This document shows, in pieces, positions 921-23,005 of a stretch of 25,537 nucleotides of DNA (the first letter of the stretch is position 1; each line of letters begins with the position of its first letter). Made by a program: the position numbers and the translations under genes. The DNA comes from a virus. Under the pieces are notes generated by a model. It saw nothing but the letters and a program-made list of their open reading frames with translations, made no database searches and had not been told where the DNA came from. The stretch covers positions 1 to 25,537 of IMG/VR virus record IMGVR_UViG_3300010368_000096; one strand, written 5' to 3'.

Positions 921-929
921 TATTTATAA
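921..929 (+). promoter_or_regulatory. TATTTATAA motif, candidate late promoter
   Basis: The sequence TATTTATAA ends 24 bases before the ATG at 954. It is one of seven copies of TATTTATWA found just upstream of genes in this window. If it acts like the -10 box of T4 late promoters, transcription would start near 934 and leave a 20-base leader containing the ribosome site AGAAGGAGA. It is also part of a short palindrome, TTATA-TT-TATAA (918-929). Confidence 0.4.
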
Positions 930-953
930 CAAATGACACCAGAAGGAGACCTT

Positions 954-1268
954 ATGATGGAAGAAGTATTATACCAATCGTTTGTTAGTTTAACAGACAT
1001 GAAAAAACTTGAATACCTATATACGTATTTAGTTGAGGATGATAGTAAAAAATTAGAAAACAAATTTGGTCCTAGACAAGCCAGAATATTAATAACAGAA
1101 AACTTAGTTGTATTACACGTAAAACAATTAAAAGATGCATTGGCAATTAAGGACGGTTTAATAATGGATGGAATGATATTACTAGACAGAAGAACCTCAA
1201 AGAATAAAGACGGATACATTGTAACGTATAAATTCGAAGGACAAGAAAACCCAATTTGCTTAAATTAA
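954..1268 (+). CDS. Hypothetical protein, 104 aa
   Basis: Unrecognised soluble protein. The frame is open from an ATG at 933, but AGAAGGAGA (941-949) sits inside that extension and is ideally placed for the double ATG at 954/957. The 954 start is therefore chosen; 957 is nearly as good. The N-terminal half is helical and acidic (SLTDMKKLEYLYTYLVEDD). The C-terminal part looks like beta strands ending in an ARG/LYS-rich turn (LLDRRTSKNKDGYIVTYKFEG, in part). The alternation LITENLVVLHVKQLKDALAI suggests a small alpha/beta domain. No known catalytic motif is visible, and it sits among other small unknown genes. Confidence 0.65.
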   Translation: MMEEVLYQSFVSLTDMKKLEYLYTYLVEDDSKKLENKFGPRQARILITENLVVLHVKQLKDALAIKDGLIMDGMILLDRRTSKNKDGYIVTYKFEGQENPICLN

Positions 1269-1281
1269 AAAACAAAACATT

Positions 1282-1452
1282 ATGAGATATAAAGAAGGAA
1301 TATTAACTAGAATTGAAAGTTTAGAATTACAATTAAGCTTTTTAGTTAAGAATATAAGTTCAGCAACAATTAGTGCTGAAGAAGCTGTAAAACTATTAGC
1401 AGAAAATCTACGTAAACTAGAATCAATAAAAGAATTGATCGAAGCGGAGTAA
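1282..1452 (+). CDS. Small coiled-coil protein, 56 aa
   Basis: This short open frame fills the gap between its neighbours: ATG at 1282, stop TAA at 1450-1452, one base before the next ATG at 1454. The product begins MRYKEGILTRIESLELQLSF and ends ESIKELIEAE. It is almost entirely amphipathic helix with Leu/Ile at heptad-like positions and many Glu/Lys, so a short coiled coil or helical hairpin is likely. The leader is A-rich (AAAAAACAAAACATTATG) with no Shine-Dalgarno site. Supporting evidence is the tight fit between genes, consistent codon use and the near-contiguous junction with the membrane protein downstream, with which it may be co-translated. Function unknown. Confidence 0.6.
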   Translation: MRYKEGILTRIESLELQLSFLVKNISSATISAEEAVKLLAENLRKLESIKELIEAE

Positions 1453-1453
1453 T

Positions 1454-2626
1454 ATGAAAACAGTACTTAAGGTATTAGTTGCAATAGTTGCATTAGGTCT
1501 TACCATTAGTGCTGCATATTTTTCTGTGCTTGGACTTACTAAGATGTATGCAGGTGCTGTATTAGGTACCGCCATTGTTTGTAGTTTTGCAGAAGCTAGT
1601 AAATTAATAATCGCATCTGTGTTACATCAGTTTAACGATAAGTTAAATTGGTTATTAAAGGGTATATTAGGTATATTCCTGATTGGTGTAATGACAATAA
1701 CAAGTATTGGTGTATATGGGTATTTAACTAGTGCGTTCCAATCAACAGCGGACCAATTAGAGATAATGGATAAGCGTACGAATGTAATTGAAATGAAACG
1801 AGATAGATTTCAGGAACAATTGGATGGATATACAGCTGAGAAAAAACAACTAGCAGAATCTATTACTGAATTATCAAAAGGATTATCAAATAACGTTATA
1901 CAGTATAAGGATAAAGAAACGGGTGAAATAATCACAACAACATCTTCATCTACCCGTAAAGCGTTACAAGGTCAATTAAATGATTTTAAGGAACAGCGAG
2001 ATAAAGTATCGTTAAAGGTAGAAGCCCTTGTTGATTCGGTTACCCGATTTGATTTACAAATAATAGACGTACAATCTAACGACGAACTAGCTCAAGAAAT
2101 TGGGCCATTAAAATTTATAGTTAGTGTATCTGGTTGGAGTATGAATAAAGTTGTAAATGTATTAACTCTAATTCTTGTTATATTAATTGACCCACTTGCA
2201 ATTATACTTGTAATTGTATTTAATAAGATTAATGATAAAGACGAACATACCTACACACCAGAAATGCATGTAGAGATGATGGATAAACAAACTGAAGCAA
2301 TGGAATGGGAACCTGTTAAAGAAGATGACGAAGACGTAAATGAAACTGAACATCTAACTTCCACAGAAGCAAATGTAGAAAATTTAGAAGAATCCATAGA
2401 ACAACTTGAATCCGACGAAACAGTATCAGTCGAATTGACTCCACAAGAAAAAAATTGGAGAAATACACTAAAAGAAAAACTATCGGGTAAACCAAAACCA
2501 ACAATCAAAGTAACAGATTTACCAATAGAAAAACAACCACACTCAGAAGGTAAACCTATACACCCACAAACCCAAGATGATTTTTATGGCGAACATAAAT
2601 CCAATAGACCAAAAAGAATTGGTTAA
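1454..2626 (+). CDS. Four-helix membrane protein with large coiled-coil domain, 390 aa
   Basis: Four hydrophobic segments are visible: about residues 4-28, 32-57, 66-92 and 233-257. Between helix 3 and helix 4 lies a hydrophilic domain of about 135 residues with two coiled-coil blocks (about 95-145 and 165-208), separated by a polar Thr/Ser loop. The last membrane helix contains an unusual central Asp-Pro (LVILIDPLAIILVIVFN). I recall this pattern in uncharacterised membrane proteins of marine T4-like phages, but cannot verify that here. After residue 260 comes a long, strongly acidic tail and then a Pro/Lys-rich end, both probably disordered. Topology suggests that the coiled coil and the tail lie on opposite sides of, or flank, the membrane. 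Possible roles include membrane remodelling, superinfection exclusion or lysis control; none is supported directly. Confidence 0.75.
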   Translation: MKTVLKVLVAIVALGLTISAAYFSVLGLTKMYAGAVLGTAIVCSFAEASKLIIASVLHQFNDKLNWLLKGILGIFLIGVMTITSIGVYGYLTSAFQSTADQLEIMDKRTNVIEMKRDRFQEQLDGYTAEKKQLAESITELSKGLSNNVIQYKDKETGEIITTTSSSTRKALQGQLNDFKEQRDKVSLKVEALVDSVTRFDLQIIDVQSNDELAQEIGPLKFIVSVSGWSMNKVVNVLTLILVILIDPLAIILVIVFNKINDKDEHTYTPEMHVEMMDKQTEAMEWEPVKEDDEDVNETEHLTSTEANVENLEESIEQLESDETVSVELTPQEKNWRNTLKEKLSGKPKPTIKVTDLPIEKQPHSEGKPIHPQTQDDFYGEHKSNRPKRIG

Positions 2627-2630
2627 AAGC

Positions 2631-2659
2631 TTGGCTAGTTAGAAAATTATTCGTATATT
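2631..2659 (+). promoter_or_regulatory. Candidate sigma70-type promoter
   Basis: In the 66-base gap before the gene at 2693, TTGGCT (2631-2636) and TATATT (2654-2659) are separated by exactly 17 bases, matching 4/6 and 5/6 of the bacterial -35 and -10 consensus. Transcription would start near 2666. In such AT-rich DNA a -10 match is common, so the support is modest. If the host is a Bacteroidetes, its different -33/-7 consensus would weaken this call. Confidence 0.3.
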
Positions 2660-2692
2660 AGTACTATATTAATTAACCATAAACTAAGTTGT

Positions 2693-3232
2693 ATGACAAA
2701 AGTCAAAGTAAAAACTAAAGTAAAAAAATCAAAAGTTAAAGAAGAGTACAAATCATTTATAGATAAGGGAGACGGACTCCGGTATATGATTTGTAGAAAC
2801 AGTAAAGAAAGTAGTCCTTTTTTCAAGGGTATATTATGTGGTACGTATCAATCTGTACCACCTGATGTTGTAGCCATATTATGTAGTAGATGTACATCTA
2901 AACTAGTTGGATTTGAAGAACCTAAACGTAGAGTTAAATCAGACAAACCACGTGGATGGGCATTTATGAAAGAATACGTTCATAAAGACGGTAAAGTATT
3001 TCATAAGGGAGTAGAACAACCTGAATTATTTGGTACAATAGACCCAACGGTTATAGAAACAACAAAAAAGAAAAAACTTACTAAGTACGAACGACAAACT
3101 GCAAGAGCTGCATTGTTTGTTGAATTTAATAAACTCAAAAAAGAACATATAAAAGAAAAACGTAAAACATATAAGTCAAAGATTAAATCTGCAATGAATA
3201 AAATTCAACGTGAAATTAAAAAGATAAAATAA
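2693..3232 (+). CDS. Basic protein with four cysteines, possible zinc-binding, 179 aa
   Basis: Not assigned to a family. Both ends are extremely Lys-rich (N-terminal KVKTKVKKSKVK; C-terminal region from about residue 120 with many KK pairs and a long helix), suggesting nucleic-acid binding. The centre has Cys at 34, 49, 64 and 67; the final C-x2-C pair (CSRC) and the spacing could form a zinc site, though this is not a textbook zinc finger. A compact segment (about residues 87-118, containing RGWAFMKEYV and FHKGVEQPELFGT) has the look of a conserved domain that I associate with hypothetical proteins of marine phages. Its stop overlaps the next start as TAATG, coupling it to the lytic enzyme gene. 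Confidence 0.7.
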   Translation: MTKVKVKTKVKKSKVKEEYKSFIDKGDGLRYMICRNSKESSPFFKGILCGTYQSVPPDVVAILCSRCTSKLVGFEEPKRRVKSDKPRGWAFMKEYVHKDGKVFHKGVEQPELFGTIDPTVIETTKKKKLTKYERQTARAALFVEFNKLKKEHIKEKRKTYKSKIKSAMNKIQREIKKIK

Positions 3233-3774
3233 TGACAAAATATATTATAATGTCTTCCATATTATTGTTTACAAAAACAGTAGCTAAGTCGGAAGTAGAA
3301 TTTAATACACATAAACAATCTGTTGATGTTATTGATGTAATACCACAAAAGACAACTAAACAATTTATGGATTCAGTCGCGTTTAAAGAATCTAGTATGA
3401 TAATTGACATAGTTAATAAATATGGTATGTTAGGTAAGTATCAGTTTAGTAGAACAACACTAAATGGAATAGGTTATGAGAATGTATCAAGTAAAGAGTT
3501 TCTTAGTGATGAAACATTACAAGATAAAGCAATGTTAACATTGATGAAACGTAATGAAAAAACTTTACGTAACTTGATTACAGAACACGACAATGACACT
3601 ATTAACGGAATACACATAACACACTCAGGTATTTTAGCAGCTGCACATTTAGCAGGAGCAGGAGGTGTTAAACGTTGGTTCCGTACACAAGGTAAACAAA
3701 CACGTATTGATGGTTTCGGTACATCAATAGAAACTTACATGAAAAAATTTGCAAACTATAAAATTAAAATATAA
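3232..3774 (+). CDS. Exported lysozyme/lytic transglycosylase-like enzyme, 180 aa
   Basis: Probably cleaves the glycan strands of peptidoglycan at lysis. The N-terminus (residues 1-19) is hydrophobic with a Lys at position 3 and resembles a Sec signal peptide or signal-anchor. The catalytic domain follows from about residue 42. FKESS supplies the likely catalytic Glu53. It is followed by NKYGMLGKYQF (62-72), typical of the SLT/lysozyme-like fold in which a Gly-x-x-Q-F segment follows the catalytic acid, and by GILAAAHLAGAGGVKRWF (133-150), which matches the late Ala-Ala-His-Leu-x-Gly-Gly region of phage transglycosylases. The assignment rests on these motifs. It could instead act during infection, but the leader-like N-terminus and position outside the tail block favour a role as endolysin. 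Small membrane proteins nearby (308-526, 4542-4856) could help it reach the wall. Confidence 0.75.
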   Translation: MTKYIIMSSILLFTKTVAKSEVEFNTHKQSVDVIDVIPQKTTKQFMDSVAFKESSMIIDIVNKYGMLGKYQFSRTTLNGIGYENVSSKEFLSDETLQDKAMLTLMKRNEKTLRNLITEHDNDTINGIHITHSGILAAAHLAGAGGVKRWFRTQGKQTRIDGFGTSIETYMKKFANYKIKI

Positions 3775-3777
3775 AAA

Positions 3778-4536
3778 ATGAAAGAATTAACACCAGAACA
3801 AATAGAAGCCAATTGGAAAGAGTTTTTGGGATATATAGAAACATATATTACCGGAGACCGTAAAAAACAATTATTAAAGTTTTACACAGACAGAGATGAA
3901 CGTTTTATGTTCATGCCAGCATCTGCAGTAGATTTTCATCACTCAGCCTTTCCAGGTGGATATGTAGACCATGTAAATAGAGTAGTTAGGTTATCATTAC
4001 AAACATTACAAATGTGGAAAGATGCCGGAAGTCCTATTAATGCAAGTGACGAAGAAATTGTGTTTACTGCATTGAATCATGATTTAGGAAAATACGGTAA
4101 CGATGATGAACCTTATTACATTCCAAATCCAAGTGATTGGCACAGAAAGAATCAAGGTAAGATTTATGATTATAATACTAATTTACCTAAAATGGATGTA
4201 CCACTTAGGGGTATTATGTTATTAACACAAAACGGTATCACACTTACAGAAACTGAATTCATTGGAATTAAAACTCACGATGGTTTATATGACGAGTCTA
4301 ATAAATATTATTTAATGGGATTCAATTGGGCTCAAAAATTAAAATCATCATTATCGTACATTGTACATCAAGCAGATATGATAGCTGCAAGAGTTGAGTT
4401 TGAAGAATGGAGAGATAACTACCGTGATGGTGCTGAATTAAAACCTAAAAAAGCAAAAGTAGTATCAGAAGTATCTACTGCTCAACAACCAATTTCGGAT
4501 AGTGCTAAAACAGCATTTGACGACTTATTTAAATAA
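3778..4536 (+). CDS. HD-domain metal-dependent phosphohydrolase, 252 aa
   Basis: Contains the ordered metal-binding residues of the HD superfamily: His65 (GGYVDH), the His101-Asp102 doublet (ALNHDLGKYG), His167 (IKTHDG) and Asp200 (VHQADMIAAR). Members hydrolyse phosphate esters of nucleotides or cyclic nucleotides, and the fold contains one or two metal ions. The upstream segment PASAVDFHHSAFPGG (47-61) before the first His recalls the TraI_2/relaxase-linked HD branch, in which a Pro-Ala-Ser and paired His precede a Gly-Gly; this is from memory and not tested. The C-terminal 45 residues are Lys/Ser-rich and probably flexible. It starts 3 bases after the lytic enzyme. The substrate is unknown; host nucleotide or signalling-nucleotide turnover is plausible. 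Confidence 0.8.
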   Translation: MKELTPEQIEANWKEFLGYIETYITGDRKKQLLKFYTDRDERFMFMPASAVDFHHSAFPGGYVDHVNRVVRLSLQTLQMWKDAGSPINASDEEIVFTALNHDLGKYGNDDEPYYIPNPSDWHRKNQGKIYDYNTNLPKMDVPLRGIMLLTQNGITLTETEFIGIKTHDGLYDESNKYYLMGFNWAQKLKSSLSYIVHQADMIAARVEFEEWRDNYRDGAELKPKKAKVVSEVSTAQQPISDSAKTAFDDLFK

Positions 4537-4541
4537 ACACA

Positions 4542-4856
4542 ATGATGAACTTTACAACACCAGAAGGAATTATAGTAATACTATTAAGTATATATGCAGT
4601 TATTACATCATTTGCATTAACAAACTTAGTAAAGAAACTAGAAAATCAAGAAGAGTCTGTTGAAGAAGCCGATGTGTATGTTACTAATATGGAAGATTAT
4701 GTTACTGACATCAAACTTCGTATTGAGAATACATATACAGAAATGAAAGCAATAGATACTAAAGGGGCATTTGAATCGGACGACGAAGTTGGAGGAACAT
4801 TTAAACAACTTTTGGAATTAATAGAATTATTAAATAAAACAACAGATACAAAATGA
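4542..4856 (+). CDS. Single-pass membrane protein with coiled coil, 104 aa
   Basis: A hydrophobic segment at about residues 9-28 (IIVILLSIYAVITSFALTNL) is followed by a long acidic coiled coil (about 29-70). Near the C-terminus is a Asp-x-Lys-Gly-x-Phe-x-x-Asp-Asp-Glu-Val-Gly block (about residues 72-84). I recall similar blocks in small conserved phage proteins of unknown function, which would mark this as a real family rather than a random membrane peptide. The start is one of a tandem ATGATG (4542/4545) behind an A-rich leader. Its stop overlaps the sigma-factor start as ATGA. Possible roles are lysis accessory or membrane-tethered regulator; neither is established. Confidence 0.7.
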   Translation: MMNFTTPEGIIVILLSIYAVITSFALTNLVKKLENQEESVEEADVYVTNMEDYVTDIKLRIENTYTEMKAIDTKGAFESDDEVGGTFKQLLELIELLNKTTDTK

Positions 4857-5656: not shown

Positions 5657-5665
5657 TATTTATTA
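5657..5665 (+). promoter_or_regulatory. TATTTATTA motif, candidate late promoter
   Basis: TATTTATTA begins at the stop codon of the sigma gene and ends 12 bases before the ATG at 5678, at the boundary where the structural block begins. With T4 late-promoter geometry the RNA would start near 5670, giving a leader of about 8 bases and removing much of the AGGAG (5668-5672) ribosome site that read-through transcripts would carry. Confidence 0.4.
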
Positions 5666-5677
5666 ATAGGAGATTAT

Positions 5678-7356: not shown

Positions 7357-7370
7357 TTTCCATTTTTTTA

Positions 7371-7379
7371 TATTTATTA
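7371..7379 (+). promoter_or_regulatory. TATTTATTA motif with overlapping dyad
   Basis: TATTTATTA lies 31 bases before the ATG at 7411, in a 54-base gap after the gp5-like gene and just behind a T-run (ATTTTTTTA). It overlaps a perfect inverted repeat, TTATTAC-AAAA-GTAATAA (7374-7391). Candidate late promoter; the dyad could be an operator or an RNA hairpin in read-through transcripts. Confidence 0.4.
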
Positions 7380-7410
7380 CAAAAGTAATAACATTAAACA
7401 CTATAACGAT

Positions 7411-7962
7411 ATGGATGCAAAAACATTAGCAAAAATTATACAATTAGTCGTAAAGGAAGAAGTAACGAAAATTGTGAAGAAAGAGATGACTATTCTTAAG
7501 AAAGAAGTTATCACCGAAATTAGAAAAACAACTCCAAAACAGAGAATTGTAGAAACAAGTCCTACACCAAGTAACCTTGATGACATTGTTAGTAATGTAC
7601 TAGCAGATGAAAGACGACAACCTACAACTAAAAAAAACAATTCAGGTGGTACAACCGCAATTGAAGATATTTTAAACGAAACAAAGGGTTTTAACCAACG
7701 TGAGGAGTATGACGAATACCCAACAATGGGTAAACCAATGCAAGCATCTGATGCACCTGGTGTTGGTAATTATCGAGATATGATGTCAAGGGAAATGGGT
7801 ATTCCACAACCAGGACAAGGTAAAACAACAGCACAAGAAATGTTACCGGACACGGATATAAATGGAAGACCTATGAACAAAGCGTCAATACCAGATCCCG
7901 TAGCAAAAGCATTAACACGTGATTATAGTGACTTAATGAAAAAAATGAATTTAAAAAAGTAA
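7411..7962 (+). CDS. Hypothetical tail-block protein, 183 aa
   Basis: Unrecognised. The first 40 residues are a strongly amphipathic, Lys/Glu/Ile-rich helix (AKIIQLVVKEEVTKIVKKEM and onward), a likely coiled coil or oligomerisation helix. The middle is polar, Pro/Gly/Asn-rich and probably disordered (about 45-150, with repeated Met-Gly-x-Pro segments such as PTMGKPMQ and EMGIPQPG). A short helical C-terminal motif (VAKALTRDYSDLMKKMNLKK) closes it. This layout, two interaction helices joined by a flexible linker, fits a small scaffold or assembly chaperone. Its placement between the spike and gp25 genes suggests a baseplate role, but that is inference. Confidence 0.65.
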   Translation: MDAKTLAKIIQLVVKEEVTKIVKKEMTILKKEVITEIRKTTPKQRIVETSPTPSNLDDIVSNVLADERRQPTTKKNNSGGTTAIEDILNETKGFNQREEYDEYPTMGKPMQASDAPGVGNYRDMMSREMGIPQPGQGKTTAQEMLPDTDINGRPMNKASIPDPVAKALTRDYSDLMKKMNLKK

Positions 7963-7974
7963 GGAATTAATTAG

Positions 7975-8439
7975 ATGGCTAGGCAACGAGAAGAATTTAG
8001 ATTTAACCCGATTGATGTTGATAATGATACAGCTGTTGGTATTGGGTTACCATTTAGTGGTAAATCAGGTTTCTTCCATCTTAATTATACAACAACAGAC
8101 CAAGCAGTTTCCAATTTAAAAAATTTAATATTAACACGTAAAGGTGAACGATACATGCAACCTCAATTTGGTTGGAGTGGTTGGGATTTACTATTTGATC
8201 AGAATACACCCGATTTAATTGATAAATTAAAGATTTCTATTAACACTGATATTGAATTTTGGTTACCTTACATTATAATCGACCAAGTTAATATCAAACG
8301 TAAACTAGATGGTGAACCTGGACAAGTTGGTCATGGAATTACAATATCAGTAAACATATCAATAGAACCAAGTTTAGCAAATAGGGTAATAACAATTGAA
8401 TTATCCGAAACAGGTGGTGTAACAGTACAAGAAGGATAA
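7975..8439 (+). CDS. 25: Baseplate wedge protein gp25 (GPW/gp25 family), 154 aa
   Basis: Member of the GPW/gp25 family found in contractile tails, phage-like tailocins and type VI secretion systems, where it forms the core of the wedge and links to the sheath. The hallmark is residues about 45-64: AVSNLKNLILTRKGERYMQP, followed by QFGWSGWDLLFDQ; the Leu-Leu/Ile-x-Thr-x-x-Gly-Glu-Arg-x-x-x-x-x-Phe-Gly pattern is diagnostic. The remainder contains the expected helix (PDLIDKLKISINTDIEFWLP) and beta strands (VNIKR, ITISVNISIE). T4 gp25 is 132 residues, so the length is normal with a slightly longer N-terminus. A TAAGGAA ribosome site precedes the ATG. The gp6-like partner lies 0.7 kb downstream, as expected for a baseplate cluster. 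Confidence 0.9.
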   Translation: MARQREEFRFNPIDVDNDTAVGIGLPFSGKSGFFHLNYTTTDQAVSNLKNLILTRKGERYMQPQFGWSGWDLLFDQNTPDLIDKLKISINTDIEFWLPYIIIDQVNIKRKLDGEPGQVGHGITISVNISIEPSLANRVITIELSETGGVTVQEG

Positions 8440-8441
8440 AT

Positions 8442-8747
8442 ATGAAATTAAGAGATTTATTAAACGAGGGGTACAGTAGTCAAACAAAACTACAAACATT
8501 AACTCCCAAGATTCAAAAACTGATAGACGGATTAATCAAATCATTCTCAGATTTTAATATTACAGTTGCTGATAATTATAAATGGTTACGCCGAGACGAC
8601 TTACGGGGAACATATACATTAAGTATAAGTGACAAGAGTACGTTTGGTAATCCAATTAATCCGGATAAGGCCAGATTAAAGAAATTAAACATACTTGTTA
8701 AAAAAATACAAGATTTATCGTACACGGAAGCTAAGAATAAAAAATGA
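8442..8747 (+). CDS. Hypothetical protein, 101 aa
   Basis: Unrecognised. It begins MKLRDLLNEG, an N-terminal helix that I have seen on various small proteins of T4-like marine phages; its meaning is unclear. The centre is alpha/beta (KIQKLIDGLIKSFSDFNITVADNYKW, in part; then GTYTLSISD), and the end is helical and Lys-rich. It starts 2 bases after gp25, so it is probably translated with it, and ends in an ATGA overlap with the nuclease-like gene. Confidence 0.65.
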   Translation: MKLRDLLNEGYSSQTKLQTLTPKIQKLIDGLIKSFSDFNITVADNYKWLRRDDLRGTYTLSISDKSTFGNPINPDKARLKKLNILVKKIQDLSYTEAKNKK

Positions 8748-9112
8748 AACCATTACCAACAAATATAAAGAAGAACACAAAAAATATGAGATTAGCTGCA
8801 ATAAAACGGATAGAACGTACCGTATATAATGGTGGACAAATGTCACCAAATTATAACCCAAATTCTATTCCAATATTAGAAGCCAAAGCATTAGAATTTG
8901 GAATAACCGATTTACAACATGCTGAGAACGGTGGTGAATTTTATATTAAAGATTTGGGTTATTGGGTAGATGGGTACAGTAAAGAGAAAAACATTGTATT
9001 TGAATATGATGAAAAACATCACAAATACGTTAAAGAAAAAGATGCTAAACGACAAAAAATAATTGAAGAACATCTTAATTGTATATTTATAAGAATAATG
9101 GAGGAAGTATAA
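8744..9112 (+). CDS. Probable endonuclease of Vsr/PD-(D/E)XK-like fold, 122 aa
   Basis: Residues about 70-118 carry the pattern LGYWVDGYSKEKNIVFEYDE, then KHHKYVKEKDAKRQKIIEEHL and FIRI. An Asp in a strand (WVDGY), a second acidic strand (VFEYDEKHH), a downstream Asp-x-x-Arg-Gln-Lys helix and a final beta strand are the order of the Vsr-like/PD-(D/E)XK nuclease core, also seen in free-standing phage homing nucleases. The N-terminal 40 residues are basic and may bind DNA. It is inserted between gp25 and gp6, two genes that are usually close neighbours, and overlaps both flanking genes (ATGA and TAATG). A homing endonuclease or a nuclease recruited for another DNA task are both possible; DNA cleavage itself is inferred. 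Confidence 0.6.
   Translation: MKPLPTNIKKNTKNMRLAAIKRIERTVYNGGQMSPNYNPNSIPILEAKALEFGITDLQHAENGGEFYIKDLGYWVDGYSKEKNIVFEYDEKHHKYVKEKDAKRQKIIEEHLNCIFIRIMEEV
9084..9092 (+). promoter_or_regulatory. TATTTATAA motif, candidate late promoter for gp6
   Basis: TATTTATAA lies inside the last codons of the nuclease-like gene and ends 19 bases before the gp6 start. A promoter here would start RNA near 9097, leaving a 15-base leader that retains the strong GGAGGAAG ribosome site (9100-9107). It would allow gp6 to be transcribed independently of the nuclease gene. Confidence 0.35.
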
Positions 9113-10992
9113 TGGGTGAATTAATACGCAAGGACGTTTCGTACTTAGGAAGGGACTTTGGGGATTTACGTAAGAATCTAATAGATTTTAGTAAGAACTA
9201 CTTTCCACAGACATATACTGATTTTAACGAAGCTTCTCCTGGAATGATGTTTATTGAAATGTCAGCGTACGTAGGAGATGTATTAAGTTATTATACAGAT
9301 CATAATTTAAAAGAATCAATGTTAAGTCAAGCATCTGAAACTAAAAACATAATGGCACTTGCATCAACAATGGGGTACAGTGCTAATAATACAGTAAGTG
9401 CAACAGCTACATTAGATGTATTCCAAATATTACCTGCTAGAGGAACTGGAACTGATATAACACCCGATTGGTCATATGCTTTAATAATTAATGATAATAT
9501 GGTTGTAAAGTCTGATAATTCAAATGCTGAATTTAGAACAGTAGAACCAATTGACTTTGCGTTTTCAAGTAGTATGAGTCCAACAGAGGTAACTGTTTAT
9601 TCAGTTAATAATACAACAGGTGAACCTGAGTGGTACCTACTTAAAAAACAAGTAAAAGCAGTTTCAGGAAAGATTACTACGGTTGATTATGATTTTGGTT
9701 CACCTAGGATATATGATAAAATAACAATTACAGATGAAAATCTAATCGAAATTATTGATATTGTTGATGCCGATAATAATAAATGGTATGAAGTTCCTTA
9801 CTTAGCTCAAGATACAATTTTTGAGTCAGTACAAAATATTGCTAAGAACGATCCCGAATTTGCTGGGTATCGTGATGAAGTACCATATCTATTAAAATTA
9901 CGTAAAACAGCTAAAAGATTTAAAACAGACTTTAAGGATAACAACAGATTAGAAATACAATTTGGTGCTGGAGTAAGTGAAGACTCCGATGAACTATTAA
10001 TACCTAATCCAGATTTAGTAGGTTCTGCATTACCAGGTCGAGACAGAGATATTGACTTTGGAATAGACCCGAGTAACTTTTTATATACACGTACCTATGG
10101 ATTAGCTCCTGCTAATACAACATTGACAGTTAGATATTCAACAGGTCAAGGTATTGGAGATAATGTTTCAGCGGGTGTATTGACAGACGTATCATCTGTT
10201 AGTATTATTTTAGATAGTGCTGGTTTAGATACAGCATTAGTTACACAGGTAAAACGTTCAGTTGCAACAACAAATCCACTTCCTGCAGGTGGTGGTGCTA
10301 GTAAAGAAACTGACGAACAAATTAGAAATAATGCAATGGCTAACTTTGCATCACAGAATAGAGCTGTAACTAAAGAAGATTACATAGTACGTGCATATAG
10401 TTTACCTGTACGATTTGGTAATATAGCAAAAGCTTATATAGTACAAGATGACCAATTATCATCAGCAGAAGCAGGTGGAAGAATATCTAACCCATTTGCA
10501 ATGAACTTATATTTATTAGGATTTGACGGAGCAACTAGATTGACACAATTAAATCCTGCAATAAAAGCAAATCTAAAAGAATACTTATCATCATACAGAT
10601 TATTAACGGATGGTATTAATATTAAAAATGCACATATTATTAATATTGGGATAGATTTTGAAATAGTACCATTACCAGATTACAATGCAAATGAAGTAGT
10701 GTTAAAATGTATGGCTAGATTAAAATCGATGTTTGATATTAAGAAATGGCAAATTAATCAACCAATATTATTATCAACTATATCAGTTGAATTAGATAAG
10801 ATTGAGGGTGTACAGACTGTTAAGAAAGTAGAATTGAATAACAAATTTGATACTAACGAAGGTTATTCGGGTAACATATATGACATAGAACAAGCAACAA
10901 AAGAGGGAGTTGTTTATCCATCATTAGACCCATCAATTTTTGAAGTAAAATATCTAGACAAAGACATAAGAGGACGTTCAACCGGACTATAA
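9112..10992 (+). CDS. 6: Baseplate wedge protein gp6 (baseplate J-like), 626 aa
   Basis: Core wedge protein that forms the inner ring of the baseplate and joins gp25 and gp7-type subunits. The N-terminal region (SYLGRDFGDLRKNLIDFSKN, about 9-28; then NEASPGMMFIEMSAYVGDVL, about 43-62, and a helix ending ASETKNIMALASTMGY) is typical of gp6 of T4-like phages. The baseplate_J-like core is seen at about 390-440 (KETDEQIRNNAMANFASQNR, TKEDYIVRAYS), followed by IVQDD and a C-terminal domain with IGIDFEIVP and LLSTISVELDKIEGVQTVKKVEL (509-580). Length is close to T4 gp6 (660). An in-frame ATG exists at 9079, but the ATG at 9112 has GGAGGAAG upstream and a TAATG overlap, so it is preferred. Confidence 0.88.
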   Translation: MGELIRKDVSYLGRDFGDLRKNLIDFSKNYFPQTYTDFNEASPGMMFIEMSAYVGDVLSYYTDHNLKESMLSQASETKNIMALASTMGYSANNTVSATATLDVFQILPARGTGTDITPDWSYALIINDNMVVKSDNSNAEFRTVEPIDFAFSSSMSPTEVTVYSVNNTTGEPEWYLLKKQVKAVSGKITTVDYDFGSPRIYDKITITDENLIEIIDIVDADNNKWYEVPYLAQDTIFESVQNIAKNDPEFAGYRDEVPYLLKLRKTAKRFKTDFKDNNRLEIQFGAGVSEDSDELLIPNPDLVGSALPGRDRDIDFGIDPSNFLYTRTYGLAPANTTLTVRYSTGQGIGDNVSAGVLTDVSSVSIILDSAGLDTALVTQVKRSVATTNPLPAGGGASKETDEQIRNNAMANFASQNRAVTKEDYIVRAYSLPVRFGNIAKAYIVQDDQLSSAEAGGRISNPFAMNLYLLGFDGATRLTQLNPAIKANLKEYLSSYRLLTDGINIKNAHIINIGIDFEIVPLPDYNANEVVLKCMARLKSMFDIKKWQINQPILLSTISVELDKIEGVQTVKKVELNNKFDTNEGYSGNIYDIEQATKEGVVYPSLDPSIFEVKYLDKDIRGRSTGL

Positions 10993-11006
10993 AAGGAAAT
11001 AATTAA

Positions 11007-14758: not shown

Positions 14759-14803
14759 ATATAATTATTTACCCAGATTTTTGGTGAATATTCTTATTTT
14801 AAC

Positions 14804-14812
14804 TATTTATAA
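14804..14812 (+). promoter_or_regulatory. TATTTATAA motif, candidate late promoter
   Basis: Sits in the 78-base gap between the 536-aa gene and the giant structural gene and ends 24 bases before its ATG. A start near 14817 would leave a 20-base leader with AAGGAAG as ribosome site. The rest of the gap (14759-14803) is AT-rich with no convincing hairpin. Confidence 0.45.
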
Positions 14813-14836
14813 GTGAATTAAGGAAGATCCTATACT

Positions 14837-17800
14837 ATGCTTAAAGATTATAAAAATTCAGACGAAATATTAAAGAATTCAGGACCTATAGAGGGTGAGT
14901 GGATTACCTCAGAAGATAAACAATTACTTAATTTACAATTCGAAGAGAAGAATGTAAAATTTGGTGAAAGTAAAACTGATGCTGTTGAGTTACACGTTTA
15001 TGACTTGAACGGTAATCTATTAGCTAGTAATCATGTAGTTGACAAATGGAAGGCTACAAAACCAGAAGAACAACAAGCAACAGGTGTTCCAAGACTATTC
15101 TTAGATCCACATTCAAATTTACGTGATTTAGGATTTAAACGTGGGGAATATAAATTTGTTTACAATTTTGTTAGACCTTTACTTGGTGAGTATAATTCAA
15201 ATCGTCAATTATTTATAAAAGAAATAAAATCAAATAAAACTGAATTAGTTTTATCTACTAATATTGTACGTAGTGATAGTGAACCTCTTAATCAAGAATT
15301 TGAAAAAGTAAAAGCTCAAATTGATAAATTCTTTAATATTCAAAATAGAGTAGCTGATTTAACGGCTAACTTAGATTCCACGCAATTACCAACAATTACT
15401 AAAGAAAACAATAAGATAGTTTATAATAAATTTGTTGATATAAAACAAATTATAGATGATAATGTACTTCGTTATAATCTAGACAGAAACGCTTATATAG
15501 AATACCTAGTAAATGACACAATTGAAAAACGAAGTAATTCGTTTGAATATGGTATAAATGAGGATTTACGAAACATAGTATCAAAAGCTGATTTATTAAA
15601 TTATTATGTACATACAATACCCAATGCAAAATGGTTAGAACTTAGGGATGAAATATATTTTTTACCAAATGCATCGGATGGAAGTTCACAACTACCTACA
15701 GGTGTAAATAACACTTTACAAAAAGACCATCCAGACTATCAATCTATAGTAATTGCTAATGCTACATTAAAAAGTTTTATTAATAATATACTTATAGACC
15801 CAGATTTCTCATTACTAACTGACCGTGATATATCTGAAATTGAATCTGTTATAACAACACCAAATACAACAATTGCAACTGCAACAGGTAATGCTCACTT
15901 GAGTATGCAAACATTCTTAAATAATCCAGAATTTGTTCCTAGAGGCAGTAACTTATTACAGAACAATCAAATATTTAGTACAGTACTTGATAATGTAACA
16001 ATTAAATATAACACGGACATTCAACGTTTAGAAAAGGATTTAATTGCATATGGTAATGAAGATTTTAATACTGATGGTATAACACCACATATAAATGTTA
16101 ATGCAACTGAAATTAGTTTAATTAAAAAACAGCTTGAGAATTCAAAACTAATCCTGCAGGAGATTGAAACACTTCGTACTCTATTTGTTACAAGAAAAAC
16201 ATCTGTAACACAAGACGAAATTGCAAAAGCATTAAAAGATGCTAAAGAACATTTAGATAATAAAATATTATTAAATACGATTAAATTAACAAATGAAGAT
16301 TTTAATTATGTTGTACAACCTGCAGATGATTATTTTGAATTATTTGAATTAAATTTTGGTAATAATAATATATTAAAAATTACTAATATAATTCGTTTAT
16401 CGGATACGGACATTGGTGTAAAACTATACGAACCAATACCAAAGACAATTTCTACAAAACAATCTTGTTGGATAAATAAAGATATCCGTAGAGCTTATAC
16501 TGATAATATTATATTATTACCGGCAATAGATGGTAATGTTGCAAATACATTAAGTGGTCCTAATTTTCACATAGAAACACATGACTTAGATTCAAAGGAT
16601 ACTGACTTCCAAACTTGGACGGAATTACTAGGAACAAATGCAAATACATCACAACAGATAATTGACAATTACTTTAGTGGTAGTATTGGTGATGTAAAGC
16701 TTAATGTTAATTATTGTGAATTAGAAAACTTTGTTCACTTTAGTTCAGCAACAGAACGTGTTAAAAACTTTCATTACAAACTAGAACTTCTAGAGTTTTA
16801 TGATGCTAGAATGGATGTGTTATTATTAGCGGCTCAATCAGGGTCTGTATCAACTAACATTACAGATACAATAACTAAACAACGTGAAGTTGTTTCTGGA
16901 TTTGATGATTTTGAAAAATGGATGTACTTTGAATCGGGTTCACAAGAATTATATACATTTGACTCGTGTAGTATTACACCATGGCCAAAAAACGTAACTC
17001 AAACAATTACAACACCATTAACTTGGTTGGAGGCTTATAATGCTTGGGTAAGTGCAAGTTATACGTGGGTAAGTGGAGCAACAACGGATATACAAACGGC
17101 ATTCAGACCTTATACATTAGTTGCAACTTCTGGTAGTTTAGATTATTATCAAAATCTATTAGAAAAGGCAGAAGAATACGATAAAACAAACCCTCATGCA
17201 TTATACAGGTCTATTCCAGATCATGTACGTGCTGATAAGTTTAACGAAGATTATGAATTGTTCGTTAATATGGTTGGACAACATTTTGATATTATGTGGT
17301 CATACATAAATCATTTAACACGAATTAATACAAGAGAAGAACATCCTAAAGATGGAATTCCGGATGATTTAATTTTTGATGTTGCAAAATCTATGGGTTG
17401 GCATTTAGCCAATGGTAACTATGATGCTAAATTATGGGACTATGCGTTAGGTACAAACGAGAACGGAGTTGTTCAGTCGTCAGGAAGCTTTATGCCTTCC
17501 AAATCAAAAGATAAAATTACTAAGGAAATTTGGAGAAGACAACTTAATAATTTACCGTACTTATTAAAAACAAAGGGTACTGAACGTTCTGTACGTGCTT
17601 TGGTTGCATGTTACGGTGTACCTCAAAGTATATTAACAGTACGTGAATACGGTGGACCAAGTAGAAGTAATAAAAAACCAACATATAATAAAAATCAATT
17701 TGATTATGCATTAAACTTAGCAGATAGTAGACACGTTCAAACAGAATGGGCTCCAATACTTTCTTCTACAGGTTCTACATATTCATACCCTGATACAATT

Positions 17801-20800
17801 ACATTAAGATTTAAAACACATAATAATACCGAATTTAATTACGGTGGTTATGGGAAACATACATTATTACAAGTTGATTCAGGTAGTGATACACGAATGT
17901 TTGTAGAGTTAGAACCAACAAGTTCAGCAGGACAAGGAAATTTACATTTTTATATGTCAGGTTCAGGTGGGTATTTAACTGCAAGTATTTTAGATGAATG
18001 TATTTTTGATGATGAATTTACAAGTATTATGATACAAAGAGCTACGTCAAGTGATGCAACTCTAATAGATAATACTTATAATTTTTATGTTAAAAAACAT
18101 AAATGGAATAAACTTACAATTAACGCAAGTGCAAGTATTAATATATCATCTCCTGGTGATAGTAGTTATAATGATACGTGGACAACATCAGGTAGTATGT
18201 ATTTAGGGTTAGCAAACAACCCAAGCAATACTACATATTTTACAGGTTCTGTACAAGAATTAAGATATTGGAATGTTCCGTTAGACGAAAGTATATTTAA
18301 TAACCACGTAACATCAGTTGGCTCTTATAACAGTAATAACCCAACAGGTAGTTTCTATGAATTACAAACACGTTTTAATTTAATAGATAATATTGATATA
18401 GATGCAACACCATATATATCATCAAGTCATCCAGATCAAACACAAAATACGTTTGAGAATGGAAATACTATTATTGCAAACTTTGAAGGAACTTGGCCAA
18501 GTTCATCAGTTTCTTGGTTGCCTTGGGAAGAAAAACAATATATTGAAGGAGCTTCGTTAGGTGGGAATAACTTATATGCGGATAAAATTCGTATTGAAGG
18601 AACATCATTACGTGGAACTTTAAATCCAAAAAGTAGACAAGAAGTAAGTGCTTTTGATAGTGCACCATTAGATGGGAAACGTCTTGGAGTTTACTTTTCA
18701 CCACAAAGTATTATTAACGATGATATATTTAGACATTTAGGATTCTTTGAACTTGACGATTATATTGGAAGTCCGGGTGATTTATATAAAGATTCATATC
18801 CTGAACTAAAAGACATTGCTCAAGAGTATTGGAAAAAGTATTCAAACAAAAATGATATAGCAGAATACATTAGATTATTTAGTGTATTTGATTTTACAAT
18901 GTTTAAGCAAATTAAACAATTGTTACCGGGTCGTGCTAATGCCGTAACAGGTTTAGTCATAGAACCAAATGTATTAGAACGAAATAAAGTATTAACTAGA
19001 CGTCCAAACAAAACGGAATTAGATTATAAAGCCGAATTTGAATACGTATATCCAGATCCAGATGTTGTGGAAACAACTCATGTGGGTGAAGTGATAATAG
19101 AAGAAGAAGAACTTAGCGCAGAAGAAACTACTTACAAAGGACAAGTAGATTCTACAGAAGTTATAGATTTATCAGTACAAGAAGACAGTATTGCTGATAC
19201 TGAAAATAGTGATTATGAATTACACAATCATGAAGGTGAAGTTGCAATTAATAAAATTGATATTATAGATATAGATTACGTACAATCACAATCCGCATTA
19301 ATAATAACAAAAGATTATAGTAAACCATCAATATATTCTCACGACTATTTATTGGTAGATAAGAACGGAACACCGTCAATTTTTAGTACGGGTTCAAGTG
19401 CACCATGGTTAAGTTCACCAACACAATCAATTATACTAGGTGTCCATACACCAACTAGTAACCAATCAAGTAATTATTGGGTTCATGAAGAAACGGGTTG
19501 GTTAAGTCCAACATCAGCAAGTACCTTTAGTTCAAGTCTTATAGATTGGGCAATACCAAGTGGAACATTGTATCCAGCAACATCAAGTGGTACTGATGCC
19601 GATACTTATACAATTGTATATAGTGGGTTCGGTGCACAGATAGGTGCTAAACCAATTGGATTTAACGACCCTTATAATTTTGTATTTAGAGGTGTTGCAA
19701 CAACACTTGGTAGATATTCGGATGATAACGATGCAAATTATGTTATTGATAAGACGGTAACAATTGGAACAGATTTAATAACACATACAGGTACAAATCT
19801 AGCACAAGATGTTGTTAGTGAAACATTAGACAAACGTAGTTTACACGAACCAACTACAACCGGAACAAGTGGATCAATAGCAGGAATTTATGGTGCTTTT
19901 GATTGGAAGGATACACAAAATGTAACTGCATCAAGTACAGAGTTTGCATACGTAACAGGTTCTACAATAGCTGGATTTCCAGGATATTCTGAATATTTGG
20001 TTACGGGTAATTATGGTTTTAATATACCATCGTCATCTTTGATTAGTGGTATCGAAATGAAAGTATTAAGAAAAGGATTATATTCATCAGGTGATGCATA
20101 TATAACGAGTGCATCCATATATTTGTCAAAAAATTCTGGTAGTGTCCATCCTCCTTTTGATGGAACAATTGAAACAATAAATACACCATGGTCATTAGAC
20201 GTGTATCCAGGAACAACATCATCATATACGACTGATACTTATGGTGGTAGTACTAGTTTATGGGGAACAACGTGGACACCGGCAGAAATAAACTCTACGG
20301 ATTTTGGTGCTTACTATCAAGTACGATTAGAAACTATCCCATCGGAATATGTTTGGGCATATGTAAACGACATAACCGTAGAAGTATTTTATGTAGATTC
20401 AGGTTCAGGTGGGTGGAGAACATCATCACAAAAAGTAATATACGGTGATAATCATAATGATTGGGGTCAAACATTTACTAGAGAGGATTTAGTTAGTGAT
20501 GACTTTAATTTTAAATTACAAGCAGCAATTACAGGTTCTACAACAGCAAATGTGGATGATGTTAAAGTGAAATTATTTTATAGTTATTTTGTGACAGGTT
20601 CAGACAAAAGCTTCCAAGAGTATGTTCCTTTGGGTATCTCAAATCACAGATACAATGGGTGTAAAGTTACTTCACCAGACATCAACGAACCAAGTCAGGA
20701 TACCTTTGATAAAGGTCCGGTTGTGGAATCAACAGCAGCAAATCCTAATGGATTAATACTAAAAAGAAAAAATGCAGCTAGAGGAGTATTTGATATTGGG

Positions 20801-20833
20801 GAATCTCCAATAAAAATACAAAATAGAAGCTAA
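14837..20833 (+). CDS. Giant baseplate wedge/adhesin protein, gp7-like with LamG domain, 1,998 aa
   Basis: The largest gene, almost a quarter of the window. Residues 1-180 hold a beta domain (AVELHVYDLNG, GEYKFVYNFVRPLLGEY), then long helical stretches to about 500. Residues 800-940 (NEDYELFVNMVGQHFDIMWS, DLIFDVAKSMGWHL, EIWRRQLNNLPYLLKTKGTE, RALVACYGVP) match tail-protein-I-like segments of baseplate wedges. A LamG/concanavalin-like domain follows at about 984-1155 (ITLRFKTHNN, FTGSVQELRYWNVPL). Residues 1280-1382 (LGVYFSPQSIINDDIFRHLG, FFELDDYIGSPGD, FTMFKQIKQLLPGRANAV, GLVIEPNVLERN) are a conserved block I recognise from marine phage structural proteins. After an acidic linker (about 1405-1480) the C-terminal 500 residues are beta-rich and Ser/Thr-rich. 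T4 gp7 is only 1,032 residues; this seems to be a wedge protein with adhesion modules added. Gp7 equivalence is by position. Confidence 0.7.
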   Translation: MLKDYKNSDEILKNSGPIEGEWITSEDKQLLNLQFEEKNVKFGESKTDAVELHVYDLNGNLLASNHVVDKWKATKPEEQQATGVPRLFLDPHSNLRDLGFKRGEYKFVYNFVRPLLGEYNSNRQLFIKEIKSNKTELVLSTNIVRSDSEPLNQEFEKVKAQIDKFFNIQNRVADLTANLDSTQLPTITKENNKIVYNKFVDIKQIIDDNVLRYNLDRNAYIEYLVNDTIEKRSNSFEYGINEDLRNIVSKADLLNYYVHTIPNAKWLELRDEIYFLPNASDGSSQLPTGVNNTLQKDHPDYQSIVIANATLKSFINNILIDPDFSLLTDRDISEIESVITTPNTTIATATGNAHLSMQTFLNNPEFVPRGSNLLQNNQIFSTVLDNVTIKYNTDIQRLEKDLIAYGNEDFNTDGITPHINVNATEISLIKKQLENSKLILQEIETLRTLFVTRKTSVTQDEIAKALKDAKEHLDNKILLNTIKLTNEDFNYVVQPADDYFELFELNFGNNNILKITNIIRLSDTDIGVKLYEPIPKTISTKQSCWINKDIRRAYTDNIILLPAIDGNVANTLSGPNFHIETHDLDSKDTDFQTWTELLGTNANTSQQIIDNYFSGSIGDVKLNVNYCELENFVHFSSATERVKNFHYKLELLEFYDARMDVLLLAAQSGSVSTNITDTITKQREVVSGFDDFEKWMYFESGSQELYTFDSCSITPWPKNVTQTITTPLTWLEAYNAWVSASYTWVSGATTDIQTAFRPYTLVATSGSLDYYQNLLEKAEEYDKTNPHALYRSIPDHVRADKFNEDYELFVNMVGQHFDIMWSYINHLTRINTREEHPKDGIPDDLIFDVAKSMGWHLANGNYDAKLWDYALGTNENGVVQSSGSFMPSKSKDKITKEIWRRQLNNLPYLLKTKGTERSVRALVACYGVPQSILTVREYGGPSRSNKKPTYNKNQFDYALNLADSRHVQTEWAPILSSTGSTYSYPDTITLRFKTHNNTEFNYGGYGKHTLLQVDSGSDTRMFVELEPTSSAGQGNLHFYMSGSGGYLTASILDECIFDDEFTSIMIQRATSSDATLIDNTYNFYVKKHKWNKLTINASASINISSPGDSSYNDTWTTSGSMYLGLANNPSNTTYFTGSVQELRYWNVPLDESIFNNHVTSVGSYNSNNPTGSFYELQTRFNLIDNIDIDATPYISSSHPDQTQNTFENGNTIIANFEGTWPSSSVSWLPWEEKQYIEGASLGGNNLYADKIRIEGTSLRGTLNPKSRQEVSAFDSAPLDGKRLGVYFSPQSIINDDIFRHLGFFELDDYIGSPGDLYKDSYPELKDIAQEYWKKYSNKNDIAEYIRLFSVFDFTMFKQIKQLLPGRANAVTGLVIEPNVLERNKVLTRRPNKTELDYKAEFEYVYPDPDVVETTHVGEVIIEEEELSAEETTYKGQVDSTEVIDLSVQEDSIADTENSDYELHNHEGEVAINKIDIIDIDYVQSQSALIITKDYSKPSIYSHDYLLVDKNGTPSIFSTGSSAPWLSSPTQSIILGVHTPTSNQSSNYWVHEETGWLSPTSASTFSSSLIDWAIPSGTLYPATSSGTDADTYTIVYSGFGAQIGAKPIGFNDPYNFVFRGVATTLGRYSDDNDANYVIDKTVTIGTDLITHTGTNLAQDVVSETLDKRSLHEPTTTGTSGSIAGIYGAFDWKDTQNVTASSTEFAYVTGSTIAGFPGYSEYLVTGNYGFNIPSSSLISGIEMKVLRKGLYSSGDAYITSASIYLSKNSGSVHPPFDGTIETINTPWSLDVYPGTTSSYTTDTYGGSTSLWGTTWTPAEINSTDFGAYYQVRLETIPSEYVWAYVNDITVEVFYVDSGSGGWRTSSQKVIYGDNHNDWGQTFTREDLVSDDFNFKLQAAITGSTTANVDDVKVKLFYSYFVTGSDKSFQEYVPLGISNHRYNGCKVTSPDINEPSQDTFDKGPVVESTAANPNGLILKRKNAARGVFDIGESPIKIQNRS

Positions 20834-20861
20834 AAAAAATAGTGAAAATATGAAAAACATA

Positions 20862-20870
20862 TATTTATTA
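20862..20870 (+). promoter_or_regulatory. TATTTATTA motif, candidate late promoter
   Basis: Lies in the 65-base gap after the giant gene and ends 28 bases before the ATG at 20899. RNA starting near 20875 would have a 24-base leader carrying AAAGGAAAAG. The context is ATATTTATTAACGAC, close to the copy at 22997 (CTATTTATTAACACT). Confidence 0.45.
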
Positions 20871-20898
20871 ACGACAACAAAGACTAAAGGAAAAGACA

Positions 20899-21603
20899 AT
20901 GGGATATTTAAATAATGCATCTGTAACAATAGACGCAATACTTACAAACAAAGGGCGTGAGTTATTAGCTATGGGTAAAAGTGAATTTAGAATTACTCAA
21001 TTTGCATTAGCAGATGATGAGATTGATTATGATTTATGGAATCCAGCACATACATTAGGTACAGCATATTACGGTTCAGTAATAGAAAACTTACCAATGG
21101 TGGAAGCACTTCCGGATGAAACTCAAATGATGAAATACAAATTAGTAACATTACCTAAGAAAACAGCAAGAATACCAATTGTTGAATTAGATACAGGTAA
21201 CATTTCATTAAGAACAGGTGGACAGGTAGCATTAGTTAAACCATCAACACCAACATTTGAAAATGGTAATGCAACATTAGGATATACAGCAATATTATCT
21301 GATTCCGATGTAGCAGATTTAAGAGTAGCACCTGGAGCACAGGCAAATACAGGAATTAGTCCATCAGTTCCAAGATTTATTGGAGATACTGATTCACCAC
21401 AAAGTATAGCAGTAACAGGTAGATCTTTTGAAATTATTGCAAAGACACAAATTAAAGGTGATAAGACTGCAACGTTAACTATTATTGGTAACGAAACGGG
21501 TGGAAGAAAACAAATTACAGTAACCGTTAAACAAGCACAAACATTTACTACTAGAGGATTTCCAATAGAAGATGGTGCAAGAGTAAGACGACCAGTATTT
21601 TAA
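20899..21603 (+). CDS. Structural protein, baseplate-periphery, 234 aa
   Basis: Residues 1-100 (GYLNNASVTIDAILTNKGRE, FRITQFALADDEIDYDLWNP, DETQMMKYKLVTLPKKTAR) resemble a conserved N-terminal domain of phage structural proteins that I have seen near gp7/gp8-type genes; no activity is known. Residues about 170-215 (SFEIIAKTQIKGDKTATLTI, NETGGRKQITVTVKQ) have the alternating strands of an Ig-like beta sandwich. The C-terminus (RGFPIEDGARVRRPVF) is basic. The ribosome site is AAAGGAAAAG. An outer baseplate adaptor to which fibres attach is the most likely role. Confidence 0.6.
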   Translation: MGYLNNASVTIDAILTNKGRELLAMGKSEFRITQFALADDEIDYDLWNPAHTLGTAYYGSVIENLPMVEALPDETQMMKYKLVTLPKKTARIPIVELDTGNISLRTGGQVALVKPSTPTFENGNATLGYTAILSDSDVADLRVAPGAQANTGISPSVPRFIGDTDSPQSIAVTGRSFEIIAKTQIKGDKTATLTIIGNETGGRKQITVTVKQAQTFTTRGFPIEDGARVRRPVF

Positions 21604-21628
21604 TAATATTAAATAAGAAAAACAAACT

Positions 21629-22921
21629 ATGGGATTAAATAGATTTAGTGGAACTGCACCAATTAATGCAGCTGCAGGTGAAGTACAACCAATTGTACCG
21701 GTTGCGGCACCGGATACCGGAAATTCAAATTCGGTTGATTTTGCTTCGGCAGTAGAACAACGAGCTCAAGAAATTGCAGAAAGACTTTTACAAGAAAGAC
21801 TACAAGCAATACGTCAAGTAAATACCGGAAGAATATTTACTGCGTTTGATGTTGTAAATGATGTAGTATCCAATCAAAAGGAAGTTGTTACTAAGGGATT
21901 ATGGACAGGTGATAAAGGTGTTCTACAATCATTCTACACGTCATCAACACAGACATCTACCCAACAACAATACTATTATGAAATTTGGAATAGTGGTTCT
22001 ACTGAAATAGGAGCAGAAGCTCAGTTTTCTGTTGCATGGGGTCATAGACAAGGTTCAGGTTCTGATTTTAGTGGAAATGATGCCGATAGCCCAACACGTG
22101 CTATTTATAGTCAATATAGATTATTATTACTAGAACCAGACGACAATACATTTACATTTGCTAATAGTACAAACTCTGATAATATTTATATTATTAATTT
22201 CAACAGAGCAAGAATTAGACAAAAACTAGATCCAGGAAATTGGGAAATTTGGTTAGGAGAATTAACAGGTTCAGGATATACTAATGCTGAATTTACGGGG
22301 TCAGGTGGACAAGTTGTTGTATCTGGAACAGGTGCACTAGTTAAGATAACTGATGATTCGGGTGATACAAATGAAGAGAAACAAGGTAATGCCGGTAGAA
22401 TACACAATGTAGTATCAGGTACTATATCACAAGGTATATATAAAGCTGATGGAACAAATCCTACATATTACGGATTAAGTTATCCTGATATGGGTATGAT
22501 AATATTAAACGGTGATGCACTAGATGCTTCAGCAAGTTTTAATACATCAACAGGTTCAGACGTTAACGGAAACAACGCATATAAATTATATGCATCAATT
22601 CAAGGTGGAGGAACACTAGCTTCTAATAGTGGAGAAGAAGACTCAGGTTTTATTGCAAGAAACTCAGAAACAGTAACATCAACATATTACTTTGCAAGAG
22701 TTAAAAATGCAGAATATAACTTCTCAAACAACCCTACGTTTATAACGGGTGGACTTGGAGAATTTTCACAACCACAGTTTATTGGAGATCCTAAAGTATA
22801 TGTTACAACAGTTGGACTATACAATGAAAGACAAGAATTACTAGCAGTAGCCAAATTAAGTAAGCCTATTTTAAAGTCGTTTACTAATGAAGTTACAATG
22901 CGTGTAAAACTTGATTATTAA
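21629..22921 (+). CDS. Tail-fibre or baseplate structural protein, 430 aa
   Basis: The N-terminus is Ala/Pro-rich, then a helix (about 38-66: FASAVEQRAQEIAERLLQER and continuing) that probably trimerises. The body is beta-rich with many Gly/Ser/Thr/Asn (STEIGAEAQFSVAWGHRQGS, NWEIWLGELTGSGYT). The last 78 residues (353-430: ARVKNAEYNFSNNP, then YVTTVGLYNERQELLAVAKL) are clearly related to the C-terminus of the next gene's product. The start is preceded by AAATAAGAAAAACAAACT without a Shine-Dalgarno site. A strong terminator follows directly. Confidence 0.6.
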   Translation: MGLNRFSGTAPINAAAGEVQPIVPVAAPDTGNSNSVDFASAVEQRAQEIAERLLQERLQAIRQVNTGRIFTAFDVVNDVVSNQKEVVTKGLWTGDKGVLQSFYTSSTQTSTQQQYYYEIWNSGSTEIGAEAQFSVAWGHRQGSGSDFSGNDADSPTRAIYSQYRLLLLEPDDNTFTFANSTNSDNIYIINFNRARIRQKLDPGNWEIWLGELTGSGYTNAEFTGSGGQVVVSGTGALVKITDDSGDTNEEKQGNAGRIHNVVSGTISQGIYKADGTNPTYYGLSYPDMGMIILNGDALDASASFNTSTGSDVNGNNAYKLYASIQGGGTLASNSGEEDSGFIARNSETVTSTYYFARVKNAEYNFSNNPTFITGGLGEFSQPQFIGDPKVYVTTVGLYNERQELLAVAKLSKPILKSFTNEVTMRVKLDY

Positions 22922-22947
22922 AATAAACTACATATAATAATTACATT

Positions 22948-22977
22948 AAATACTCACTCAACAAGTGGGTATTTTTT
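22948..22977 (+). terminator. Intrinsic (rho-independent) terminator
   Basis: Stem TACTCACT (22951-22958), loop CAACA, stem AGTGGGTA (22964-22971), 8 base pairs including one T-G pair, extended by AAA/TTT (22948-22950/22972-22974), followed by a T-run (22972-22977). It ends 33 bases before the next start codon and should stop transcripts coming from the 430-aa gene. Confidence 0.85.
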
Positions 22978-22996
22978 GTATAATTTAAAAAATCAC

Positions 22997-23005
22997 TATT
23001 TATTA
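22997..23005 (+). promoter_or_regulatory. TATTTATTA motif, candidate promoter of near-leaderless mRNA
   Basis: It is the only promoter-like sequence I see between the terminator and the ATG at 23011 and ends just 5 bases before the ATG. With T4 late geometry, the transcript would start at about 23010, one base before the start codon. Confidence 0.45.

Follow-up and report, generated by a model that had tools for sequence, protein, structure and literature searches.

In the T4 lineage, late elements have been proposed in silico for cyanophage S-PM2 and for KVP40, 44RR and Aeh1, which have gp55 homologues, and the Aeh1 element carries a/gC at -13/-12, a small shift from the T4 word (PMC2988020). 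T4 itself was taken here as a yardstick: a scan of 50 kb including the late region revealed 14 copies of the late element TATAAATA on the plus strand versus 4 on the minus strand, and this element sits 14-28 nt before nine starts of the late block.

Far-T4 phages are frequent in water and Bacteroidota hosts are predicted for them, the promoters of Bacteroidota being unlike those of E. coli. In the literature collection searched, nothing turned up on late transcription in far-T4 phages and no earlier report of a TATTTAT late motif. The window analyzed in this work is the whole stretch of 25,537 nt shown above. A sequence-only reading had proposed that TATTTATWA, present at seven gene starts of the window, is the late promoter of this phage. 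This proposal is supported by the enrichment of the motif in related phages, by its association with late genes in Flavobacterium phage immuto and by its retention before orthologous genes. On these grounds, the motif is likely to serve a far-T4 lineage as the -10-like element of its late promoters, used by a phage gp55-type sigma factor on the host core polymerase. The host group of the lineage is probably Bacteroidota.

The TATTTATWA motif in the window

Seven plus-strand copies of TATTTATWA were located exactly where the sequence-only reading had placed them, with gaps to the named start codons inside the claimed range of 5-31 nt (Table 1). Six copies are intergenic, and the copy at 9084 falls within the last bases of ORF 8744-9112, also as described. 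Two further plus-strand copies within genes, previously spotted by eye, start at positions 10510 and 15210, and the whole-window scan revealed three copies on the minus strand (3414, 4299 and 13764). Considering both strands of the whole window, 12 copies were observed versus 5.4 expected. The 45 nt upstream of 23 starts contain seven copies and none of the reverse complement, versus a mean of 0.257 and a maximum of 3 in 2000 dinucleotide-preserving shuffles of the same upstream sequences, and 4% of the window holds seven of the nine plus-strand copies (P = 6e-9). The two copies within genes and the three on the minus strand fit chance occurrence. The T4 late element TATAAATA is absent from the plus strand of the window.

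When the sites of relatives and of immuto were included, the core of the proposed motif stood in the form [A/C]TATTTAT, whereas the trailing WA was found to be a preference and not a requirement. Just 3 nt past the nine-base motif at 921 there is an in-frame ATG (933), but ATG 954 is favoured as the start codon because it is preceded by AGGAG. The tail block also has a single ORF (14837-20833) encoding 1998 aa. A gene resembling metal-dependent phosphohydrolases (3778-4536, PHROG 5889/28876) lies shortly 5' of the sigma gene, and immuto has a phosphohydrolase at the matching position. A possible early promoter, TTG-N20-TATATTAG with TTCG in front, was noticed at 2631-2661 before ORF 2693, and its spacing is that of the immuto early class TTG-N20-TATATTTAG.

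Table 1. Motif copies, neighbouring genes and a terminator-like hairpin in the window. Gaps run from the last base of the nine-base copy to the start codon.
Feature	Position	Strand	Remarks
Motif copy TATTTATAA	921..929	+	24 nt before ATG 954
Putative gp55-like late sigma factor gene, 267 aa	4853..5656	+	Profile comparison
Motif copy TATTTATTA	5657..5665	+	Immediately follows the stop codon of the sigma gene; 12 nt before ATG 5678
Gene after the sigma gene, 146 aa	5678..6118	+	No family match; counterparts in relatives start like MNFDQELFGNKK
Motif copy TATTTATTA	7371..7379	+	31 nt before ATG 7411
Function-unassigned gene behind the 7371 site	7411..7962	+	
Baseplate wedge gene, gp25-like, in tail block	7975..8439	+	PHROG 261/43
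Motif copy TATTTATAA	9084..9092	+	19 nt before ATG 9112
Baseplate wedge gene, gp6-like, behind the 9084 site	9112..10992	+	PHROG 219/6
Motif copy TATTTATAA	14804..14812	+	24 nt before ATG 14837
Motif copy TATTTATTA	20862..20870	+	28 nt before ATG 20899
Intrinsic terminator-like hairpin, 11 pairs, T-rich tail	22948..22974	+	Shortly 5' of the 22997 motif
Motif copy TATTTATTA	22997..23005	+	5 nt before ATG 23011, nearly leaderless geometry
Gene behind the 22997 site	23011..24678	+	Tail family, weak match

Motif density and late genes in related phages

Two largely independent sets of relatives were collected. The first one comprises 80 IMG/VR loci obtained through the putative sigma gene, with 38-70% identity in an aligned sample, and the second one comprises 80 loci fetched with the immuto sigma plus two genome contigs. 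The sequence-only reading had named a lack of enrichment in related phages as an outcome that would speak against a promoter; the motif was found enriched before genes in both sets. In these sets of about 80 phage contigs each, the density of TATTTAT immediately before genes is approximately 12-fold that within genes, with most of the upstream copies in sense orientation. In the first set, its density per kb was 3.47 in the 45 nt upstream, 0.28 on the sense strand of genes and 0.68 for the reverse complement upstream, with TATAAATA at 0.22 upstream versus 0.11 in genes; after removal of near-duplicate genes, ATATTTAT was present in 79 upstream regions versus 4 for its reverse complement. In the second set, [AC]TATTTAT reached 1.98 per kb upstream, 0.46 for the reverse complement and 0.085 in genes. 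There, TATAAATA was also denser upstream than in genes (0.67 versus 0.07), but its own reverse complement reached 1.26, and therefore the sense-strand signal of this set is TATTTAT.

In the Mel-JY01 genome, the motif shows no clear strand bias genome-wide (51 versus 39), with 19 versus 2 copies just upstream of genes, and it precedes, among others, terL, the gene that follows it and the tail tube gene. A sigma-locus relative (SHWW01000027.1) was found inside a Flavobacteriaceae MAG from deep Lake Baikal, a setting in line with a Bacteroidota host or with a binned virus contig.

The association with late genes was analyzed in the complete genome of Flavobacterium phage immuto (MW353176), an isolate on Flavobacterium sp. 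LMO8 in which the sigma gene adjoins baseplate genes. TATTTAT sites precede terL, gp20, PhoH and the sheath, tube, hub, tape-measure and other structural genes, while an exact motif copy is missing upstream of gp23 and of some further late genes. When the count was limited to genes preceded by a gap of 25 nt or more, the motif was found before 19 of 31 late genes versus 5 of 52 early genes (Fisher P = 8.5e-7), the two late blocks and the early blocks being drawn by the authors from the annotation. The consensus of 21 immuto late sites is [AC]TATTTATAA, followed mostly by an A about 4-5 nt past TATTTAT (fifth/sixth bases), and no -35 element is conserved across these sites.

A second class of sites, found before small early genes of immuto, is bipartite (AGTTGC-N19-TATATTTAGGTA or AGTTGC-N19-TATATTTAGGTATCAATAATTAAAA) and resembles the Bacteroidota housekeeping promoter TTTG/TAnnTTTG (PMC6847099, PMC9723704). 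About 18 copies of AGTTGC-N19-TATATTTAGGTATCAATAATTAAAA are present in immuto (loci L089/L090, about 22-76 kb), and pieces of it are frequent in relatives too. An upstream TTG was found in 18 of 18 early sites versus 5 of 21 late sites. Because all the early sites have this TTG and the late sites have no -35 element, the late class is, as judged from these alignments, distinct from the host-like early class, despite the similar appearance of their cores.

Site anatomy and the adjacent sigma factor

T-runs of at least 6 nt within the 60 nt upstream were found at 31 of 75 motif sites (41%) versus 56 of 555 control starts (10%; P = 1.6e-10). Such runs, typical of terminators, would be expected before the motif if promoters resume transcription behind terminators. 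A strict hairpin test was too insensitive, with 2 of 75 motif sites versus 1 of 555 controls.

Of 65 relatives, near-duplicates included, 46 carry the motif before the gene that directly follows the sigma gene. The usual form at this gene is TATTTAT-N4-ATG, the N4 being variable in sequence. The window and the relatives L071 and L074 have a similar gene at this place (M-N-x-E-x-E-V-F-K-G), with the motif 14-15 nt before the ATG and AGGAG in between, and L009-L011 carry a TAATTATTAAT-like sequence in place of the motif. Two of these near relatives, L009 and L011, have kept the 7371-type site before the same gene as in the window. More than 30 loci of the immuto clade have the N4 spacing before a gene that starts with MKLDQLRKIIRE and occupies the position of immuto gene 156, directly ahead of gp25. 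A peak of A/purine is located 4-5 nt after TATTTAT, and its distance is constant relative to the motif, not to the ATG. If transcription starts at this conserved A, the TATTTAT-N4-ATG messages would be leaderless, and this spacing predicts leaderless late mRNAs in many relatives. Only a minority of Flavobacterium mRNAs are leaderless (5.5% in F. psychrophilum, PMC9723704).

The assignment of the sigma gene to the gp55 type was upheld by the alignment of a 26-sequence profile with one built from nine gp55 proteins, covering residues 34-135 (hhalign E 4.3e-6, 87% probability). An initial profile comparison had given a weak match (E 3.9e-4, 35%), and it took the broader alignment to obtain a convincing one. 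Single-sequence searches of Pfam and PHROGs at the default cut-off gave no match, and PDB profile searches gave nothing useful. The sigma profile also aligns to Bacteroidota ECF sigma factors across sigma region 2 (E 1e-3), and bacterial and phage sigma factors lead the results of a whole-chain structure search, nearly all with weak E-values.

The sigma-2 domain occupies about residues 35-135, and a three-helix, HTH-like C-terminal domain is predicted at about residues 183-250, with some 70 extra residues where sigma-4 would be. Members of the gp55 family are small, with a sigma-2 domain, a short clamp-binding C-terminus and no sigma-4, whereas the window sigma aligns in sigma-2 and has a longer C-terminus. 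That the predicted C-terminal domain is sigma-4-like is offered as a hypothesis only, because the sequence comparison fails (E 0.19) and the isolated domain, compared by fold, hits only DNA-binding helices of a generic kind and unrelated proteins. No gp33 or gp45 partners were identified within the 25.5-kb fragment. A review of T4 late transcription asked why a fused late sigma (gp55 plus gp33) is absent in nature (PMC2988020), and for this reason a further hypothesis is worth stating, tentative and rather doubtful as it is: a natural single-chain late sigma, with a gp55-like sigma-2 and a C-terminal sigma-4-like domain replacing the separate gp33 of T4, may read TATTTAT and give many leaderless late mRNAs.

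In the proposed mechanism, the phage gp55-type sigma (Table 1) would bind the host RNA polymerase core, and the resulting sigma-polymerase would open the DNA at [A/C]TATTTAT(A/T)A, without a -35 contact. Transcription would start at an A about 4-5 nt past TATTTAT, and every site would begin a new late transcription unit, frequently right behind a terminator. A start codon 4 nt past TATTTAT would give a leaderless message. The transcription start, the pairing of sigma and motif and, for the window phage, the temporal class are all inferred from sequence.

Alternative explanations and comparison with known promoters

A promoter for the host primary sigma factor (Bacteroidota TTTG/TAnnTTTG), and not for the phage sigma, would agree with the word TATATTTA, which is common to the immuto early promoters (TATATTTAGGTA), and with the likeness of the cores. 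This is nevertheless unlikely, considering the difference in upstream TTG between the two immuto classes, the lack in late sites of the final G of TAnnTTTG, the C that often precedes them instead of TA, and the lack of any TAnnTTTG enrichment upstream of late genes in immuto. A role of the motif in RNA or translation, such as repression or ribosome binding around the start codon, would account for its position close to start codons and for the common gap of exactly 4 nt to the ATG. However, the distance to the ATG varies by clade (14-15 nt with AGGAG in between for the window and L071/L074, 4 nt for many others) with a constant motif, the distance of the A/purine is set from the motif, and terminator-type T-runs precede the sites. 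As the motif keeps its place while the ATG distance shifts, a promoter fits better than a translation signal, which is regarded as very improbable.

Even less credit is given to a real promoter on the opposite strand, TWATAAATA, similar to the ATAAATA of T4 and cyanophages and driving antisense RNA. The reverse complement of the motif does include ATAAATA, which is near TATAAATA, but the called genes of the window are all on the plus strand and downstream of the motif, and the sense orientation is favoured upstream of genes by about 2- to 20-fold, depending on the set and the core. The composition of the window (68% A+T), with intergenic DNA that looks richer still, could suggest chance occurrence, the least probable explanation of all, which is refuted by the shuffles and by the conservation of the motif in two large sets of relatives.

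A late promoter element defined in this way would allow sequence-only annotation of late transcription units over many contigs, and it would provide a clear example, inside the T4 lineage, of a sigma and its promoter being re-specified. Fused late sigma factors and leaderless phage mRNAs become testable questions in the isolate immuto.

The motif is best read, from its sequence context, as a variant of the late promoter of T4 with a re-specified element. A single -10-like element, no -35, a phage gp55-type sigma and the same geometry are common to both systems (gp55/gp33/gp45 in T4; PMC2988020). Late promoters of the T4 type also depend on gp33 as co-activator and gp45 as clamp, and initiation there takes place about 5-6 nt past the element. 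The difference from the T4 word pointed out in the sequence-only reading was upheld: the T4 core is TATAAATA and here it is TATTTAT, with TATAAATA lacking a clear sense-strand enrichment. Unlike that of T4, the sigma is longer and has an extra C-terminal domain, and many sites are predicted to give leaderless mRNAs. The elements of S-PM2, KVP40, 44RR and Aeh1 stay near TATAAATA, whereas the centre of the element described here is TTT, that of T4 being AAA. The sigma-A promoter of Bacteroidota (PMC6847099, PMC9723704), the likely host group, also has an AT-rich -7 element with TTT, but it includes a -33 TTG and a final G, and the late motif has neither of them.
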